A stretch of DNA of 64,000 nt from Luteibacter rhizovicinus (GTDB lineage Bacteria > Pseudomonadota > Gammaproteobacteria > Xanthomonadales > Rhodanobacteraceae): NCBI RefSeq assembly GCF_004342265.1, contig NZ_SMCS01000007.1, positions 1-64,000 on the forward strand. The letters run 5' to 3'. Shown piece after piece: positions 21,156 through 30,005 of this stretch; position 1 is the stretch's first letter, and every line of letters begins with the position of its first letter. Position numbers and translations under genes: made by a program. The notes beneath the pieces are model-generated. The model saw only the letters and a list, made by a program, of their open reading frames with translations, ran no database searches and was not told the origin of the DNA.

Positions 21156-21671
21156 ATGAGTCGCCGTATCGTCGTATCTGTCATTGCATCGCTCAGCGCA
21201 GTCGCATTGTTCGGGGTCGCGGAATACACCCACGCTGCCACCGCCACGACCACCTTCAACGTACGCATCCAGATCACCGCCGCGTGCGATATCAGCACTA
21301 CGGCACCTACCGACGTCAATTTCGGATCGCATCCGTCGACGGCTACCAATGTCGACAATCAGGGAGCGCTCAACGTGAATTGCACGCCCAGCTCGCCTTA
21401 CACCATCGCGCTGGATAACGGGCAGAACGGCATCGACGCCAATTCCCGCAAGATGAGCAATGGCACGGTACTCGTGCCCTACCAGCTCTACCGTGCCGCA
21501 ACGCGGACTGCCGCCGACATATGGGGAAGTACGACAGGAACGGGCGGCAATGTCTTCGCCGGCAGCGGCACCGGCGCGTCGGTGCCGCTGCCGGTGTACG
21601 GCCGCGTGCCAAGCACCAATTTCGCGGTCGGCAGCTATGCCGATGTGATCACCGCTACGATCACGTATTGA
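21156..21671 (+). CDS. Csu-type pilus major subunit (spore coat U domain)
   Basis: A 171-residue exported protein with a signal ending near YTHA, followed by a single SCPU domain. Its marks are NVRIQITAACDIS, DVNFGS, LNVNCTPSSPYTIALDNGQN, then VPYQLYRAA, WGSTTGTGG and PVYGRVP, ending GSYADVITATITY. The two Cys would form the conserved disulphide. Family knowledge: SCPU proteins polymerise through donor-strand exchange into archaic chaperone-usher pili that mediate attachment and biofilm formation (CsuA/B in Acinetobacter). It is the first gene of a four-gene operon with chaperone, usher and tip protein. Confidence 0.9.
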   Translation: MSRRIVVSVIASLSAVALFGVAEYTHAATATTTFNVRIQITAACDISTTAPTDVNFGSHPSTATNVDNQGALNVNCTPSSPYTIALDNGQNGIDANSRKMSNGTVLVPYQLYRAATRTAADIWGSTTGTGGNVFAGSGTGASVPLPVYGRVPSTNFAVGSYADVITATITY

Positions 21672-21673
21672 CG

Positions 21674-22408
21674 GTGTTTCCATGGCTTTCGCGAGCGTGG
21701 ATAGCCGCCTTGCTGGCGGCATGGTTGGCGTGCGTGCAGGTCACGGCGATGGCGAGCGGACTGCAGGTTTCGCCCATCGGCCTGCAACTTGCAGCCAATG
21801 CGCAGGCCGACGCGCTGTGGCTTACCAATACCGGGACCAACACGATTCAGGCCCAGGTCCGCGTGTTCCGCTGGACGCAGGTGGATGGAAAGGATCGACT
21901 GGAGCCCACGCGCGATCTGATCGTCAGTCCGCCGATGATATCGGTAGCGCCCGGCGACCGGCAGCTGATACGCGTGATCCGCAGCGTGGATGCGCCAGTG
22001 GGTACGGAGCTTGCATACCGCGTCCTGGTGGACGAGCTTCCCCTCGATCAGGAGGCGAAACCCGGCCTTCGCTTCGTACTGCGGTATTCCATTCCCATAT
22101 TCCTCGTTCCTTCCGATGGAGCGAAGACCGCGACGTTACGCGCGACATGGCGCGACGGGCCGGATGGAACCGCCCTGGAAGTACGCAATTCGGGCAGCGG
22201 CCACGCGCAGATAGCGGATCTCGCGATCGTCGGCGCCCAGAACAATCGCACGGTGCTGCTACCCGGGCTGGTGGGTTACGCATTGCCCGGCAGCACGATG
22301 AGCTGGCGCGTGCCGCCGCAAAGCAATCCCCGTGGTGGCGCCGTGCGCGCAAGGATCAACGGTGAGGTGTCCGAATCCACACTTACCGTGGACGCGGACG
22401 GCCGCTAG
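21674..22408 (+). CDS. Periplasmic pilus chaperone (CsuC/PapD-like)
   Basis: A 244-residue PapD-like chaperone. No ATG fits; the GTG at 21674 (or a TTG at 21668 overlapping the pilin stop) gives a signal peptide MFPWLSRAWIAALLAAWLAC ending near AMA. The mature protein has two Ig-like domains with GLQVSPIGLQLAANAQADAL, the conserved PPMISVAPGDRQLIRVIR strand and ELAYRVLVDELP. Its role is to cap and fold pilus subunits in the periplasm and deliver them to the usher. Its end overlaps the usher start. Confidence 0.88.
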   Translation: MFPWLSRAWIAALLAAWLACVQVTAMASGLQVSPIGLQLAANAQADALWLTNTGTNTIQAQVRVFRWTQVDGKDRLEPTRDLIVSPPMISVAPGDRQLIRVIRSVDAPVGTELAYRVLVDELPLDQEAKPGLRFVLRYSIPIFLVPSDGAKTATLRATWRDGPDGTALEVRNSGSGHAQIADLAIVGAQNNRTVLLPGLVGYALPGSTMSWRVPPQSNPRGGAVRARINGEVSESTLTVDADGR

Positions 22409-24719
22409 CCTTCTGATGCTCAACGCCATGGCCCTTCACGCGACATCGCGCGACGCGGCGGAACCGGCGCCCCCACCGCCTACCGTTACGCCGCGCACGC
22501 GTACGGCCGGCGAAGACCTTTATCTCGAAGTGATACTCAACGGTACGAGCACCAGCCGTCTCATCCACTTCGTACGCCATGGCGAAGCGCTATGCGCATC
22601 CACCTCCGATCTGCGTTCGCTGGGCTTCGTGGCGCTATCTGGCGACGACGAGCAATGCCTCGGCGACATGAAGGGAGTGCACTACTCCTACGACGTAGCA
22701 CTCCAGCGCGTTTCCGTCGACGCGAGCATCGACCGCCTTTCGCTGCCTCGCCAGGTACTGAATCGCAACGAACGAACATCGATACCCGCGACCAGCTCAA
22801 CCGGCATCCTGCTCAACTACGACATCTATGCATCGAGCGGCGAGGGACAGGGCAATATCAGCGCGCTGGCGGAAGCGCGGGCATTCACGTCGCAGTACGG
22901 CGTACTCAGCAACACGTCGCTGACCCGGCGCTACGAAACGAATAACGATGGCTGGAAAAGCGATTCCGTAAGACTGGATACGCAGTGGCGCCTGGCACTT
23001 CCCGACCGCGCGCAGGCGCTTACGATAGGCGACACCTTCACGGGATATCTGTCCTGGACGCGACCCACGCGTATCGGCGGCATCGCATTCGGTACCGACT
23101 TCGCCTTGCAGCCGTATCGCGTCACCACGCCGCTGCCGCAGTTTTTCGGCGAGGCAACCGCACCGTCGGCGGTGGAGCTTTATGTCGACGGTATCAAGCA
23201 ATACAACGGCAAGGTTCCCGCCGGCCCCTTCCAGCTGACCGCCGTGCCGGGCATGGACACCGCCGGCCAGGCCCAGGTCGTTCTCACCGATGCGCTGGGA
23301 CGCAGCAGCACGGTGACTTTCCCCATCTATTCCGCACGGCAGTTGCTGGGCGCCGGCGTGAACGACTGGTCGGTGGAACTGGGCGCCGTGCGCGAGGACT
23401 ACGGCATCACGTCGTTCAAATACGGCCACGAACCCATCGTCAGCGCGACGTGGCGTCGCGGCATCACCAACCAGTTCACCTTCGAAAGTCACGCCGAAGC
23501 AGGCGACGGTCGCGGCACGGCCGGCGCCGGCGCGGTCTGGACGCCCGGCGGCGCCAGCGTGGTCAACAGCTCGGTTTCGATGGCATACGGCGGCGGTATG
23601 CAGTTCGGCGCCGGCTACACGTGGACAGGCAAGTTCATGAACCTGTCGCTGGATACGTTACGCAGCCGTGGCAATTACCGCGACGTTGCCAGCGGCTACG
23701 GATCGGCGCCGCCCCGCGTAAGCGATCGTGCGCTGATCGGCTTCAACGTACGGCGCGCCAGCTTCGGAGCCAACCTCGTGCGCCTGCGATACGCGAACCA
23801 GCCGATGACGCGCTACGCCGGCCTGTTCGTCTTCGGCAATATCGGCCGCGGCACATCGATCAATCTCAGCATCAACCAGAACCTGGACAAGTCCAGCGAC
23901 CGGAGCATTTTCGTCGGCTTCACGATGGCCCTCGATACGCAGAGGACGTTGAGCTTCTCGGCCCAGCGCGATCGCGACCGAACGTCGTTCATTGCCGATG
24001 CCAGTCAGCCGATCCCCGGCGATGGCGGCTTCGGCTGGCATGTGCAGGGACGCAGCGGCGCCAACGGAGGCGGCCTGGGCGAAGTGGGCTGGCTTGGCAA
24101 CAACGGCCAGGCCACGCTGGGTGCGAGCACGATGGGAGCAGGCTCGTACAGTTACGCGGATATCAACGGTTCCGTGGTGTTCCTCGGCGGCCATGTGTTC
24201 GCGGCGCGGCGCGTCGACGATGCCTTCGCTGTGGTAACGACCGATGGCGTACCGGACGTTCCGGTGCAGTTGGAGAACCGCCGCACCGGCGTCACCGACA
24301 GTCATGGAACGTTGCTGGTTACCCGACTGAACGCCTATCAGGACAACCGTATCGCCATCGATCCCCTCGACCTTCCTGCCGATTCGCGCGTGCAGCGTGT
24401 CGAAGCGATCGTCGCCCCGGCCGACCGTTCCGGTGTCGTGGTGCGCTTCCCGATCAGCCAGGTACGCGCGGCATCCGTGGTGCTGGTCGACGAAGCCGGC
24501 GTCGATCTGCCATTGGGCAGTCGCGTCGATACGGGCGACGGGAAGCCGGGGATCGTGGGATACGACGGCCTGGCCTATCTCGACACGCTGAAAGGTTCGA
24601 CGGAACTGCGCGTGACGCGAACGGATGGCCGCACCTGCACCGCCACGCTCATCTACCCGGAACAGGCGCACGATCTTCCGCAGCTGGGACCGCTGACCTG
24701 CCGCGAGGTACGCCCGTGA
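22362..24719 (+). CDS. Outer-membrane usher (CsuD/FimD-like)
   Basis: A fimbrial usher of about 785 residues. The GTG at 22362 is preferred to the ATG at 22416 because AAGGA lies six bases before it and the product then has a signal peptide (TRTAASLLMLNAMALHA). The GTG lies inside the chaperone gene with a 47-bp overlap. Visible parts are the N-terminal domain (EDLYLEVILNG), the barrel with LQPYRVTTPLPQFFGEATAPSAVELYVDG at the plug, and YGGGMQFGAGYTW. The C-terminal domains end CTATLIYPEQAHDLPQLGPLTC. It forms the pore through which the pilus is assembled. Confidence 0.88.
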   Translation: MRCPNPHLPWTRTAASLLMLNAMALHATSRDAAEPAPPPPTVTPRTRTAGEDLYLEVILNGTSTSRLIHFVRHGEALCASTSDLRSLGFVALSGDDEQCLGDMKGVHYSYDVALQRVSVDASIDRLSLPRQVLNRNERTSIPATSSTGILLNYDIYASSGEGQGNISALAEARAFTSQYGVLSNTSLTRRYETNNDGWKSDSVRLDTQWRLALPDRAQALTIGDTFTGYLSWTRPTRIGGIAFGTDFALQPYRVTTPLPQFFGEATAPSAVELYVDGIKQYNGKVPAGPFQLTAVPGMDTAGQAQVVLTDALGRSSTVTFPIYSARQLLGAGVNDWSVELGAVREDYGITSFKYGHEPIVSATWRRGITNQFTFESHAEAGDGRGTAGAGAVWTPGGASVVNSSVSMAYGGGMQFGAGYTWTGKFMNLSLDTLRSRGNYRDVASGYGSAPPRVSDRALIGFNVRRASFGANLVRLRYANQPMTRYAGLFVFGNIGRGTSINLSINQNLDKSSDRSIFVGFTMALDTQRTLSFSAQRDRDRTSFIADASQPIPGDGGFGWHVQGRSGANGGGLGEVGWLGNNGQATLGASTMGAGSYSYADINGSVVFLGGHVFAARRVDDAFAVVTTDGVPDVPVQLENRRTGVTDSHGTLLVTRLNAYQDNRIAIDPLDLPADSRVQRVEAIVAPADRSGVVVRFPISQVRAASVVLVDEAGVDLPLGSRVDTGDGKPGIVGYDGLAYLDTLKGSTELRVTRTDGRTCTATLIYPEQAHDLPQLGPLTCREVRP

Positions 24720-25717
24720 AACGCCTCGCCGGACTGCTCCTGTTCCTGCTTCTGGCCCTGTCCGCCGCCGGGGCGCATGCCGCGACCGAATGCCATGTGA
24801 CCAGTCTGGGACCGGTAGCCTTCGGCCAGGTGCAGCCGAACTCCACAGCCGTCACAACCACCTCGACGCTCAACTATTCGTGTTCATATAACGGCGGTCT
24901 GCTCGGTGGATTGTTCGGCACGTACGTCACGATATGCGTGAGCCTCGGGCCCGATCCGCAATCCAGCTATAACCCGCGCACCCTGGTCAATGCCACCTCC
25001 GACACGATGAACTACAACATCTACAAGGACACCAACCATACCCAGGTCTGGGGCTCGCTTACCGTTTCGCCGACATCGCCACTCACTATCACAGATAGCT
25101 TCACCATTCTCGCCAACGGGACGACCAAGACCGGCTCGGTCGTCATCTACGGACAGGTGCCCGCCTCCCAGGCGAACCTGGCGTTCGGCAGCTATACCGG
25201 TTCGCTCACGGCCTCGATGAACTACCGGTACAACGAAGTTCTCCTGTCGTTGGGCGGCTATCCGGCGAGCTGTACCACGGGCGGGACCGGAGGGGGAACC
25301 AGCACATCGACCAATCTCGCCGTCACCGCTAGCGTTCCTCCGTTTTGCGCTGTCGGCACCGCGGACGACCTGAATTTCGGCAACATACCGGGGTTCATCA
25401 ACACGAATCACGACAATAATTCGCTGGTTCGCCTGACCTGCACCCTGCGTTCGCCGTGGCAGATCGGCCTCGACAACGGCCAGCACGCCACCGGTTCGAC
25501 ACGACGCATGCTGGGTACAACCACGACGGTTATCTACGAGCTATACAAAGAGGCGACCTACGCCACGCGCTGGGGCAATACGCTCAACACGGACACCCTC
25601 AGCGGCACGGGAACAGGCGCGGAGCAAGCCATAAGCGTCTACGGTCGCGTCCCCGTACAGACACCGGTTCCCGCCGGTTCGTACAGCGACGTGATCCAGG
25701 TGACGGTGACGTACTGA
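24716..25717 (+). CDS. Csu-type tip protein with two spore coat U domains
   Basis: A 333-residue exported protein. The GTG at 24716 overlaps the usher stop (GTGA) and gives the signal MKRLAGLLLFLLLALSAAGA-HA. Two SCPU domains are visible: the first from ATECHVTSLGPVAFGQVQ to GSYTGSLTASMNYRYNE, the second from VTASVPPFCAVGTADDLNFG to GSYSDVIQVTVTY, joined by a Gly/Thr-rich linker (GGTGGGTSTST). Two-domain SCPU proteins at the end of such operons (CsuE) are tip adhesins. No terminator hairpin was seen before the REP pair that begins 27 bp later. Confidence 0.87.
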   Translation: MKRLAGLLLFLLLALSAAGAHAATECHVTSLGPVAFGQVQPNSTAVTTTSTLNYSCSYNGGLLGGLFGTYVTICVSLGPDPQSSYNPRTLVNATSDTMNYNIYKDTNHTQVWGSLTVSPTSPLTITDSFTILANGTTKTGSVVIYGQVPASQANLAFGSYTGSLTASMNYRYNEVLLSLGGYPASCTTGGTGGGTSTSTNLAVTASVPPFCAVGTADDLNFGNIPGFINTNHDNNSLVRLTCTLRSPWQIGLDNGQHATGSTRRMLGTTTTVIYELYKEATYATRWGNTLNTDTLSGTGTGAEQAISVYGRVPVQTPVPAGSYSDVIQVTVTY

Positions 25718-25744
25718 GCTTGGCCCCCAATTTCGCGAACCTCC

Positions 25745-25886
25745 CTGTAGGAGCGCTCTCGAGCGCGAAAGCCAACGGAGCGTAGAAACGGATACTCACA
25801 TTCGCCAGCCCCGATCCACGGGCTGGCGTTGCAACGCAGGGCGTCTTCGCTTCGTCGGCTTTCGCGCTCGAGAGCGCTCCTACAAC
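25745..25886. repeat. REP pair (BIME) no. 2 after the pilus operon
   Basis: Inverted hairpins built on GTAGGAGCGCTCTCGAGCGC at each end flank a conserved interior with CACATTCGCCAGCCCCGATC. The interior is close to that of the pair at 26541-26682, while the stems differ. It begins 27 bp after the tip-protein stop and may terminate the pilus operon. Confidence 0.85.
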
Positions 25887-26206
25887 ATAGTCGGTGCCCA
25901 CTCAGACTAATCTGAAAATTCGGTCTCTTTTATCCAAACGGGTTGACGCTTCATGCCGTCGCCGCGATCCTCACCGGGTCGCCGCACATCGGCGATCGGG
26001 TGTGGAAACCCGTGTTCCGCAGTAGGCGCTGAAGACGCCGTCTCAAACGACGTCTTCATGCGTTGCGATACGTTGTGCCTGCCTTACGGCGGGCGTGCCG
26101 GGAGGACTTCGGTCCTGCCGGGTTCCTACTGCACCGGTTTTTCCACCCTGGCACGCCCGCCACCCGCATCCTGCGGGTGGCGGACATCCACGGAGAGGAT
26201 GCCGCC
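25887..26206 (+). ncRNA. Strongly structured 5' leader of a small orphan gene
   Basis: This non-coding stretch contains several inverted repeats. A 7-bp stem pairs 26031-26037 with 26051-26057. A long-range perfect 12-bp stem pairs 26088-26099 with 26150-26161, enclosing an AGGAC-TTCG-GTCCT hairpin (26103-26116). Another perfect 12-bp stem pairs 26157-26168 with 26172-26183. The last two share 26157-26161, so they exclude each other, and the second ends nine bases before the ribosome site GGAGAGGA. This is the layout of a leader that switches expression, though no ligand or class is recognised. An overlapping frame of 85 codons (25953-26210) looks non-coding. Confidence 0.5.
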
Positions 26207-26521
26207 ATGAGCAGCAAGCAAAACGAACCATCCGCGTCGTACGTCCTGAAGTCCGGCCACGACCTGTCCATTCCCTGCCCGCTTTGCAAAGGCAGTCGGG
26301 CCCTGAAGCTGGGCGATATCGACGAAGCGATCACCGAGCGTTTGTCGGGCATGCGTGGCGTGACCGATCTGCTTATCGACGTACCGATGATCGATGCCGA
26401 GCAAGGCTCGGTCGCGCAGGCTGCGTACGTGCTGCGCGGTCTGATCGATGAGGTCGTCGAGATGTATCGGGTGATGAGTCCGGGGGGCGATGAGAAGAGG
26501 CGCGGGATGCCGGTGCAGTAG
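26207..26521 (+). CDS. Small orphan protein with CPLC motif
   Basis: A 104-residue protein of unrecognised family. The ATG at 26207 is chosen for the GGAGAGGA seven bases upstream. It contains one CPLC pair near residue 24 (SIPCPLCKGSRALKLGD), which might bind metal or form a disulphide. A helical region follows (DEAITERLSGMRGVTDLLID, then AAYVLRGLIDEVVEMYRVM) and the tail is charged. There is no signal peptide or membrane helix. It is isolated: the pilus operon precedes it and the convergent cytochrome operon follows, with a REP pair on each side. No function is proposed. Confidence 0.7.
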   Translation: MSSKQNEPSASYVLKSGHDLSIPCPLCKGSRALKLGDIDEAITERLSGMRGVTDLLIDVPMIDAEQGSVAQAAYVLRGLIDEVVEMYRVMSPGGDEKRRGMPVQ

Positions 26522-26540
26522 TCCAGCGATGCCCCGATGT

Positions 26541-26682
26541 CTGTGGGAGCGCGCCTGCGCGCGAAAGCCGACGAAGCGTAGAAGCGGATGCTCACATTCG
26601 CCAGCCCCGATCCGCGAGCTGACGTTGCAACGCATGGCATCGCCGCTCCGTCGGCTTTCGCGCGCAGGCGCGCTCCTACAAC
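26541..26682. repeat. REP pair (BIME) no. 3 before the cytochrome operon
   Basis: Inverted GGGAGCGCGCCTGCGCGCG-type hairpins flank an interior that closely matches BIME 2 and shares GCATGGCATCGCC with BIME 1. It fills the gap between the orphan gene stop (26521) and the cytochrome c4-like stop (26708), which converge. It probably acts as a bidirectional terminator. Confidence 0.85.
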
Positions 26683-26707
26683 GATCCGGTTATATCCAAC
26701 AATTCAG

Positions 26708-27388
26708 CTACAACGACTCGATGTAGCTCGACAGGGCCGCGATATCCGCATCGCTCAGGTTCTGCGTCACGCCATGCATCACGCTGGCGTTACTGCTGCC
26801 CACCCGCGTACCCGTCCGGTAGTCGCCCAACTGTTGCGTCACATATAGCGACGACTGCCCGGCCAGCGAGGGGAAGCTATGCCACGACGGCTGGGGCGAC
26901 GAAGAAAAGGCGGGCTTCGGCCCCCGGCCGGCCGTGCCATGACACCCCTGGCACGGCGGCACGCCCAGCGTTGGATCCCCCGCAAGATAAAGTACCGCGC
27001 CGCGCGACGATGCATCCGGCCGGCCGGCGGCTTTCGGCGCCAGCGCCGCGTAATGCGCGGCAAGATCGCGCATATCCGCATCGGACAACCCGGCCGCCTG
27101 GCCAGTCATGATGGGATTCGCACGCTGCCCCTCTTTGTACTCTTTCAACTGGATGTATACGTACGTTGCGGATTGCCCCGCGAGATTCGGAAACGTGGGC
27201 GCAATGGCCACGCCTGCCGGCCCGTGGCATGCCGCGCATACCGCAGCCTTCGCGGTGCCCGCCGTGGCATCGCCATGCACGGTTTCCACGCGGCGCAGGT
27301 CGAGCGGCTTTACCGGTGCATCGGCGGCCGCGCAGGGAAGCATCCATGCGAATGAGGCGGCGACGATCAGACGAACAATGGTCGACAT
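26708..27388 (-). CDS. Diheme cytochrome c4-like protein
   Basis: A 226-residue periplasmic cytochrome with a signal peptide ([19 protein letters not shown] to AADA). Two class I heme c domains carry [11 protein letters not shown] (about residue 51) and CQGCHGTAG (about residue 147), with candidate axial Met residues in NPIMTGQA and SVMHGVTQ. Length and two-domain layout match cytochrome c4. It is the third gene of an operon after the decaheme cytochrome and the barrel, so a likely role is electron transfer between the decaheme protein and inner-membrane oxidases. GGAGGGGG lies just before the ATG. Confidence 0.88.
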
Positions 27389-27398
27389 GGCCCCCTCC

Positions 27399-29984
27399 TC
27401 ACAGCTTCACGTTTAACATGGCGCCGACGAGGCTCGCGCTGTAATGCCGCTGCGGTCCCTTGTCGGTGTAAACACGATGGTCGTAGTCGAGCGTGTTGTC
27501 GAATCCCGCGTAGTGGAAATCGGTGAACGACCCCGTTTCGTAACGACCGAAGAGACGCATGCCGAGCTGATTGGTGAACCTGAAACTCAGGCCAAGGTCG
27601 ACGCTGTTGCTGCGATAGCTGTTGTCCGGAAAACTGTCGCCGGCGGCGGCCGCCGCATTGGGTCCGTGGTACGCAAGCGCGGCGAGCGAAGCGTAGTTGT
27701 AACCCACGTGACCGAACGAACCGGAGTAGTTGTAGCTCACATCCGCGCGCACCCGACCGAAGTCGTGACTGAAACTCAGACCCGCGTTGCTATTACGCTC
27801 GCGATCGAACTCCCACCATTGATTCGCGTACGGATACAGCGGACCGCCAAGACTGGGATTGGTCTGGCCGATGTTCGAACCGATCAGCGACTCGTTGTCG
27901 GCCACGTTGGATATGCCGAGCCTCGTCCCTTCGGCGCCCAGATAGACATTCATCGTCGTGGCTGGCGTCGGCTGCCAGTCCCACTGCAGGGTGGCGCCAG
28001 TCGTCGACGTATTCTGCCGGCCGATCTGCGTATCGTAACGATCGCGACTGCCGTAGAACGTGGCCGAAAGCGTGGTCGAATCACCCCATGGATACGTGAG
28101 GATGAGACGCGCTTTGTTCTCCGTGCGATCGGAAAGATCGTACTTGCGCATGTCGTCCACGGTATGTGCCGCGATACCCGTGACCGGATCGACGAAGCCC
28201 GCCAGCGATTCGGAAAAGAACTGTTTGTAGGGATCGTAGTTGTAATGATCGCCGGTACGACTGGCGTATTCGTAAGAAGCGCGAATCGTCGCGCCACCCA
28301 CACTCCGGGCGACCCATGCGAGTTTGATCCGCTGGTCGTCGACCCGCTTCCGCTCGCGATATTTCGGCTGGTTATGGTCGAAGGTATAAGTCGCGCTCAA
28401 CGACTGCTTCGGCGCCACTTCCCAGTCGCCACCCAGTTCGAACAACGTATCGGTGTAGCCGTATGGCACGTTGCGAACCGTCACATTGGCCGAATGCAGC
28501 AGCGGATTGCGTGGATCGAAGATGCCCGATTCGCCGGGCACGATGCTTCCCTGCGAGCCGTTCTCGGAGATGTAACCGTACTGCCCCGTGATCGGGTTAT
28601 AGGCGAGATAACGGGTCTTGTTGTCCTCGCGGTACCAACGCAGGTTCGCATGCCAGCCGAACGTCGGTGTCGGCCGGAAGGTCAGGCGCGTATCGATCAG
28701 TCCGGTGTCGATGCGCGCATTGGCATTCTTCTGCGACAACGCGTTCGTCGTGTTCCAGTCCGCGCAATTGAACGTGTAGTTGACCGGCGGCGCGATGAAG
28801 ATGCCGCCGGTACCCGTACAGGTGGTTGGCGGCAGCAGCGCATCGTTCTGCCTCATCGTCCCGTAAGCCGCGGCGACCGTGAACTGGCCATTCCCTTTCA
28901 GTTCGCGCGACAGGTCCAGCCGGACGTTGTGATAGTCGTTGTCCGGCTCAAGGGAGAATTGGCCGTACTTGATATCGGCAACCTGCGGCGTGCCCACGAC
29001 GTTGTAAAGACGGAACGGACTTTCGAAGTTCAGGTGATCCTGGTTGTTGCGGAAGAACGAACCGGTATAAGTCGCCATGAAGCGCCATATCCTGCCGACG
29101 TTGCGCACGCTCAGATTCACGTCGGTCGTACGGAAATCGATGGGCCGGACCGTTTCCAGCACGCCGCCGTTATCGGGAAACGGATAGTTGAAGAACATCG
29201 AGCCGCCCCACAGACGCGTACCCGATCGTTTTTCGTTCGTGACCGACGCCGATCCGATCCAGTTGCGCCACACCGTGCCTTCGATGCCGATGCCTTCGCG
29301 TGTGCGCGTCAGCCCGATCGTGCGGCGCGACGACCCTGCGTGCGCGGCGGCCACCTGGCCCGGCGTGCTCGCACCGGCGATCAGCGGAGAAGGCAGCGTC
29401 AGATCGGAGGTTCCGACGCCGTTCCACAGAGGATAGGCATTCGTCGACACGGTATGCGGCATGTCGCGGTAGAAGGCTTCCACGCGATAGCGCCCGTACT
29501 GACCGGCACGCAGGCGATAGAACTGGTCGTCGCCGCTCAGCCGGCTACCGCGCAGTTCGACGTACTGGCCGGTTTTCGCGTTCTGGAAGTCGAGCGCCAG
29601 AAGACCCAGCGCGAAGCCGGATTTCCAGTCCGCGTACTGGCGGAAGAATTCCGCGTTGCGGCCGCCGCCCACGTGGATAAATCCGAGTTCCACCACGCCG
29701 GAATAGGTCCAGTCGGTCGCTTTACCCAGCGGCTTCACATCGGCGGCGGCGGGCGGAAAGCGATACGGCAGGCCCGTCGGCGTGCGCAGCATGCCCGCGT
29801 GCAGATAGGACATGCCGTCCGGATCGGCCGGATACAGCATGGGTGTCCAGCCGCGCGGGTCGAGCGCATTCCCGAACTGCATGTCGCCGACGCGCATCGT
29901 ACCGCTGGTATCGCCGGCGAACGCGCACGAGGCGCATGCGACACCGATGCCGAAGATCAGGACTTTCGCTTCGAGCGCATGCAT
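27399..29984 (-). CDS. MtrB/PioB-family outer-membrane porin for a decaheme cytochrome
   Basis: An 861-residue beta-barrel protein. The ATG at 29984 is chosen over 30002 because GAGGAGG then sits six bases upstream and the product opens with a clean signal ([23 protein letters not shown]). A globular N-terminal plug-like part ([22 protein letters not shown]) is followed by many amphipathic strands with alternating aromatics, ending [16 protein letters not shown]. It matches the MtrB/PioB family, which sheaths an MtrA-type decaheme cytochrome across the outer membrane. The mature part has no N-terminal CxxC pair like that of Shewanella MtrB, which brings it closer to PioB/MtoB. It lies 21 bp after the decaheme gene. 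Confidence 0.88.
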
Positions 29985-30005
29985 TGTCCGCCTCCTCGTC
30001 ATCGG

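Follow-up and report, generated by a model that had tools for sequence, protein, structure and literature searches.

The C4 antisense RNA of bacteriophages P1 and P7 controls the antirepressor gene ant, which is located behind icd, and cleavage by RNase P gives an RNA of ~77 nt. According to the summary in PMC5320573, this RNA undergoes cleavage by RNase P and acts at the ribosome site, where it prevents translation. For satellite phage P4, PMC4825925 describes early transcription termination brought about by pairing of CI RNA with seqA and seqC, which are located upstream and downstream of CI. PMC5320573 furthermore describes 21 dispersed C4-like sRNAs in a single A. baumannii genome (Group 1), with variable a′ loops and apparent processing at a GG motif, while the motif table of Weinberg 2010 includes both C4 and c4-a1b1. 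In the portions of the open-access literature that were available, no report was found of self-matching C4 units within one genome or of a conserved hairpin downstream of C4.

The sequence analysed here (the window) comprises the first 64,000 nucleotides of contig NZ_SMCS01000007.1 of Luteibacter rhizovicinus, the genome of which (4.47 Mb, 22 contigs) is designated G000. A cmscan comparison with Rfam identified, in the leader of a small gene, a C4 antisense RNA (RF01695; 71.4 bits vs a gathering threshold of 45, E 6.4e-12) as well as its a1/b1 target, the c4-a1b1 element (RF03163; 47.0 bits vs 46.7), and nothing else above threshold across the 64-kb window. The leader belongs to the C4 antisense RNAs, an established class of phage immunity RNA. 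An earlier note on this DNA had been unable to match the leader to a known class and had proposed an attenuator, a thermosensor or a ligand-responsive leader; riboswitch, thermosensor and new-class readings were dropped because Rfam returned C4 and c4-a1b1 and no other family at threshold. The model of IsrK (RF01394) scored 29.6 bits against the leader, below its gathering threshold of 50. Sub-threshold Rfam microRNA matches at 25745-25885 arise from a REPIN-like inverted doublet, and we regard them as chance matches. Support for the parallel with leaders of pseudomonads drawn in the note was weak, coming from two Pseudomonas phage records which match the leader at ~76% over at most about a quarter of the query.

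The two perfect 12-bp stems from which the note had deduced a structured regulatory leader with competing stems were confirmed at their positions (Table 1), with bases 26157-26161 in common, and homologues were shown to covary. The long-range stem corresponds to closing stem P1 of C4, the nested hairpin with a TTCG loop to P2 (loop at 26107-26112) and a third hairpin to P3 with its a′ loop; the GG at the start of P1 is also present. For the region 26031-26210, the predicted folding energy is -95.4 kcal/mol (z -6.1), a value that none of 200 dinucleotide shuffles attained. Mutual exclusion, which had been claimed for the complete stems, applies to the outer five pairs of each, as full P1 is compatible with the apical 7 bp of the local hairpin, both being present in the minimum-energy fold; with all 12 bp of the hairpin formed, the energy (-75.6 kcal/mol) is only 3 kcal/mol worse than that of the best state (-78.6 kcal/mol). 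When the 12-bp hairpin was enforced, 26088-26092 was predicted to re-pair with 26202-26206 and the SD side remained paired. Eight bases were counted between the hairpin and the SD. A three-stem translation switch composed of P1, the local hairpin and the SD hairpin appeared attractive by eye, and was not borne out by SD accessibility. In a consensus scan of the leader, neither a sigma-70 promoter nor an intrinsic terminator was called; the putative promoter listed in Table 1 is kept, with variation, among group-1 copies.

Table 1. Features of the C4 unit in the window (positions are those of the window)
Feature	Position	Strand	Basis or remark
Shared upstream site CAGACTAATCTGAAAA	25903-25918	+	Putative operator or promoter element; matches pattern CAGAYTADTCTGAAAA
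Putative promoter, TTGACG (25943-25948) and GATCCT (25966-25971), 17 apart	25943-25971	+	Assigned by eye
c4-a1b1 element, two hairpins, b1 at 26001-26008	25965-26016	+	cmscan, RF03163
a1 target GCAGTAGG	26019-26026	+	Perfect complement of a′ in own C4
Hairpin located between target and C4, not followed by a U-run	26030-26058	+	Inverted repeat, fold
C4: P1 26088-26099/26150-26161, P2 26101-26116 (TTCG loop), P3 26117-26138	26082-26167	+	cmscan, RF01695
a′ specificity loop CCTACTGC (P3 loop)	26125-26132	+	Pairs with a1; cognate best of 19
b′ specificity segment TTTCCACC	26140-26147	+	Pairs with b1 region
Local hairpin: C4 3′ strand 26157-26168, arm 26172-26183	26157-26183	+	Excludes outer P1
Candidate SD hairpin, GGCGG-A-CATCC/GGATG-CCGCC around SD	26179-26206	+	Predicted, minimum-energy fold
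SD, GGAGAGG	26192-26198	+	
Small-protein gene, ATG start, 104 aa, CPLC motif	26207-26521	+	New family

The gene behind the leader, previously regarded as an orphan, has 19 further relatives in its own genome and 12 in congener G020: a profile of the downstream protein, searched against 23 genomes of the genus, returned 20 copies in G000, 12 in G020 and one weak match in G006. A C4-type leader precedes 18 of the 20 own genes, 15 being recognised by Rfam and three by pattern (C4 with a shorter P2); of the other two, C3a has an upstream remnant only and C14 has lost its leader. Rfam matches in G000 amounted to 17 for C4 (16 above the cut-off) and 15 for a1b1 (one above the cut-off), while in G020, which represents another species, each of the 12 genes is preceded by one of the 12 C4 RNAs. 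Decayed copies comprise C1c (without gene), C14 (without leader) and a truncated copy in G020 (C1:731433). In addition, a gene of G020 (L055, G020:C3:79874-80149) contains an in-frame TGA with its leader code kept. C4 has a patchy distribution, with matches in 6 of 41 relatives (G000 included) and, across the class, in 24 of 369 genomes.

The genes flanking ten of these units represent ordinary chromosomal families (transporter, LysR regulator, SAM synthetase, lyase, cation efflux etc.), among which no phage family and one T4SS coupling protein were identified. An empty-site test of insertion at the window unit yielded clear two-sided synteny in none of the congeners, which match the neighbouring fimbrial gene at just 64-70%. 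Judged by eye from the ORFs of 21521-30002, this unit lies between a chaperone-usher-like fimbrial cluster and a pair of genes, on the other strand, encoding a cytochrome c and a large beta-barrel-like protein. Two REPIN-like inverted doublets (25742-25885 and 26541-26683), elements which recur many times in the genus, flank the unit.

For comparison of each C4 with each target, a1, b1, a′ and b′ were cut out by fixed anchors in 19 of the 22 own units (C1c, decayed, C3a, without C4, and C14, without leader, were left out) and hybridised all vs all. Cognate a1 x a′ duplexes had a mean energy of -12.6 kcal/mol vs -4.5 for non-cognate ones, and the corresponding values for b1 x b′ were -19.1 and -13.1 kcal/mol (0 of 20000 permutations in both cases). 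When both energies were summed, the own C4 was the best partner in 18 of 19 units, the remaining one (C5a) ranking fourth; b1 x b′ alone was rarely decisive, as exemplified by the window unit, for which b′ alone ranks its cognate sixth of 19 and the sum with a′ ranks it first. The a′ sequence differs in each of the 19 units, b′ occurs in 14 versions, and C6a and C6c have a common a′ core. When the anchors were replaced by a generic window, the best partner was the own C4 in 14 of 19 units of G000, 10 of 12 in G020 and 8 of 9 in the set G488_b-j (0 of 20000 permutations each), in 17 of 24 diverse phage-type loci (0 of 20000) and in 4 of 6 units of G051 (29 of 20000). The a′/b′ code was thus shown to be private to each unit.

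In a comparison of five close copies, divergence per site is.26-.31 for a1, a′, b1 and b′, as against 0 for the P1 3′ strand,.022 for the local hairpin and.165 for fourfold sites; the excess of a1/a′ over fourfold sites, as would be expected of diversifying selection on the code, was not significant (p = 0.075). These units provide natural orthogonal antisense codes on one scaffold, 19 in one genome and 12 in another, which would be useful for deriving rules of RNA-RNA recognition.

In the set of 24 diverse loci, the region downstream of each C4 is likewise a match for that C4, through the a2/b2 target located at the ribosome site (-30.8 vs -24.0, 0 of 20000 permutations). Five or more consecutive T before C4, which mark the leader terminator, occur in 28 of 29 diverse loci and in 6 of 6 units of G051 (these diverse sets differ by test: 24 loci for own and downstream targets, 30 for the local hairpin and 29 for the U-run). 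The downstream fit was no better than chance in G000, G020 and G488_b-j (3576, 16557 and 12578 of 20000 permutations, respectively); the value for G051 was 10026 of 20000. The T-run was present in 1 of 19 units of G000, 0 of 12 of G020 and 0 of 9 of G488_b-j. As the downstream fit is at chance level and the T-run nearly absent, the units of G000, G020 and G488_b-j keep the upstream target only, having lost the intrinsic terminator as well as the target at the ribosome site. The second target is not part of the Rfam C4 model, so that its absence marks a variant within RF01695.

These units resemble C4 of P1/P7 (RF01695 and RF03163) in their fold, in the order of target, C4 and gene on one transcript and in the complementarity of a′/b′ to b1/a1, whereas they differ in having neither a second target at the ribosome site nor a U-run terminator before C4, in being dispersed in ordinary chromosome and in having a gene for a CPxC protein downstream. 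According to PMC4825925, P4 CI RNA and IsrK/STnc1160 of Gifsy-1 are likewise antisense RNAs processed from a leader with a matching upstream target; P4, however, also has a downstream target, and IsrK ends at a Rho-independent terminator, whereas the window unit has no terminator-like site. The A. baumannii Group 1 RNAs are similar in being dispersed and C4-like with variable a′ loops, although no self-matching upstream target or downstream gene family is described in the extracts of PMC5320573, in which trans targets are suggested. For these 21 unexplained RNAs, their own leaders are suggested as a place to find targets. G488, from another family of the same order, has nine C4 leaders with a private upstream code, no downstream target and no U-run, but a different small-protein family downstream, with AADGQPW-like motifs in several members. 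These leaders (L106-L113 and L092) possibly represent an independent expansion.

Conserved sites upstream of the units are nearly confined to C4 units. The pattern CAGAYTADTCTGAAAA has 13 exact matches in G000, 12 of which are located at C4 units, and TTTTTCGGAATAATCGGAT has seven in G000, all at group-2 units, and 12 in G020, one per unit; reversed controls gave 0 matches for both. An exact copy of the group-1 site (L145, G000:C8:37686-37701) is situated away from any C4 unit. The simplest reading of shared sites and private codes is a common input with private feedback. The C4 phage switch looks like it has given rise to a family of privately addressed bacterial switches, in ~20 scattered copies before small genes, linking the immunity RNA of P1/P7 to a dispersed bacterial gene family.

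We consider it probable that a dispersed, self-addressed variant of C4 represses its own gene via the upstream target. Such a C4-type control unit, descended from immunity regions of the P1/P7 kind, would now occur in the chromosome on its own, ahead of a small gene. On a single transcript, the target (b1, a1) would be followed by a hairpin and the C4 RNA, and these by a second hairpin and the small gene. By analogy with P1/P7, C4 would presumably be excised by RNase P, upon which its a′ and b′ segments would pair in trans with b1/a1 on transcripts of the own unit, so that expression would stop before the gene, with repression as the presumed net effect. Since the ribosome-site target is absent, early termination, as in P4, or decay of the paired leader is the more likely form of this stop; the geometry of the window unit appears compatible with termination of the CI/seqA type.

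The local hairpin, which re-pairs the 3′ strand of P1 with a downstream arm and is mostly located beyond the 3′ end of the Rfam model, was shown to be conserved along with C4. Seven or more contiguous pairs linking the C4 3′ end with the 50 nt downstream were present at 70 of 76 C4 loci compared with 13.8 expected from shuffles, a comparison biased in favour of the hairpin since it was first found in one member and the best arm is selected by the search for duplexes. This count used all 18 C4 matches of relatives and, from the class search, 39 of the 54 listed matches outside G000 (L074, L078 and L090 being cut by contig ends and 12 others left out). In 30 diverse loci, the fit of the hairpin was -18.0 for cognate, -14.8 for permuted (0 of 20000) and -11.3 for shuffled arms, and pair types change on both sides, e.g. 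C-G in 19 and U-A in six loci at one position. Covariation among homologues, which the note had named as one way to check such a leader, was therefore found both here and in the own-code tests. The corresponding test gave 76 of 20000 in G020, and no cognate preference in G000 alone (3328 of 20000), because the sequence hardly varies there.

In phage-type loci, b2 was often seen by eye within the loop of this hairpin. Computational removal of the hairpin arm changed SD accessibility little, with lower values in 6 of 19 units of G000 and 4 of 10 of G020 (10 of 12 units, two being without a recognised SD string). If P1 is not closed, the hairpin may take the 3′ strand of C4, whereby a transcript would either yield C4 or stay messenger. 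The hairpin, which accompanies almost every C4 locus studied, may account for the dual use of one transcript as antisense RNA and as mRNA. A wider proposal, which we advance tentatively as somewhat short of probable, is that the shared upstream site can turn on all units while each C4, through its private code of 8-10 nt, silences only itself, giving ~20 mutually blind RNA switches per cell, and that every C4 locus may hold a fold switch, downstream hairpin against closing stem, which chooses between antisense RNA and messenger.

The codon positions of the downstream gene diverge at.045,.036 and.125 (first, second and third) among the five close copies, as for a translated gene under purifying selection, and a CPxC motif is invariant in 22 aligned proteins. 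The window protein has no Pfam or NCBIfam match at E<=1 and a single PHROG match at E 0.31, with no match to an antirepressor such as ant of P1/P7. Relatives outside the genus were found neither among 50,697 phage records nor among 72,556 plasmid records; single-protein searches returned no relatives from genome_contigs and viral_contigs and, among 197 genomes of the family, matches in the own genome only. The single-sequence structure model was poor (pLDDT 59.7) and predicted two helices. Other two-helix small proteins behind C4 belong to DUF3077/DUF6124; a link of the window protein to proteins of this type was unsupported by Pfam or NCBIfam.

Concerning the function of this gene, type I toxin-antitoxin logic would imply that the small protein is harmful and kept off by C4, the units being addictive dispersed genes. 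Such a role, compatible with repression of the gene by its own C4, may be entertained as possible though rather unlikely. It would account for a small gene under antisense control which is multi-copy and patchy (3 of 23 genomes of the genus, one with a weak single match), and private codes would stop one copy silencing another; icd of P1, moreover, interferes with cell division. Against this, neither a toxin motif nor a transmembrane stretch was noticed by eye in the protein, and leaderless copies exist (C3a and C14).

Alternatively, b1/a1 might pair with a′/b′ within one transcript, in which case the leader would be an attenuator folding in cis and no free C4 RNA would be made. All parts are indeed on one strand within ~210 nt, the competing stems are within 3 kcal/mol of each other and complementarity within a unit is what a long-range stem would show; covariation within units is unable to tell cis from trans pairing. 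We nevertheless regard a cis-only switch as unlikely, given that the C4 fold itself reaches 71.4 bits, that C4 matches two separate targets in the 24 diverse loci, both of which one cis stem cannot use at once, and that, according to PMC5320573, levels of the C4-like RNAs in A. baumannii greatly exceed those of the part upstream of them.

Improbable to a greater degree is an action directed outwards, in which C4 mainly silences incoming phages or satellites with matching targets and the upstream target is an autoregulatory relic. C4 is the superinfection immunity RNA of P1/P7, many different codes are present in one genome, and the idea is raised for the C4-like RNAs of A. baumannii by the authors of PMC5320573. 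However, the self-match is kept in nearly every unit, as one would expect only where the own target is of importance, and each unit keeps a coding gene, with signs of purifying selection in the five close copies. That the units are functionless relics of decayed prophages is highly improbable: although C4 belongs to phages and decayed copies exist (C1c, C14 and G020 C1:731433), own-code complementarity is kept in 19 leaders despite sequence change, the codon-position bias in gene divergence is kept, and the neighbourhoods of the ten units examined are, as described above, ordinary chromosome.

Clustering of C4 RNAs was observed in a 1.5-Mb genome of the survey, which contains six C4 matches (L079, L093 and G475:C9:1700-3092), four of them in tandem within 1.4 kb.
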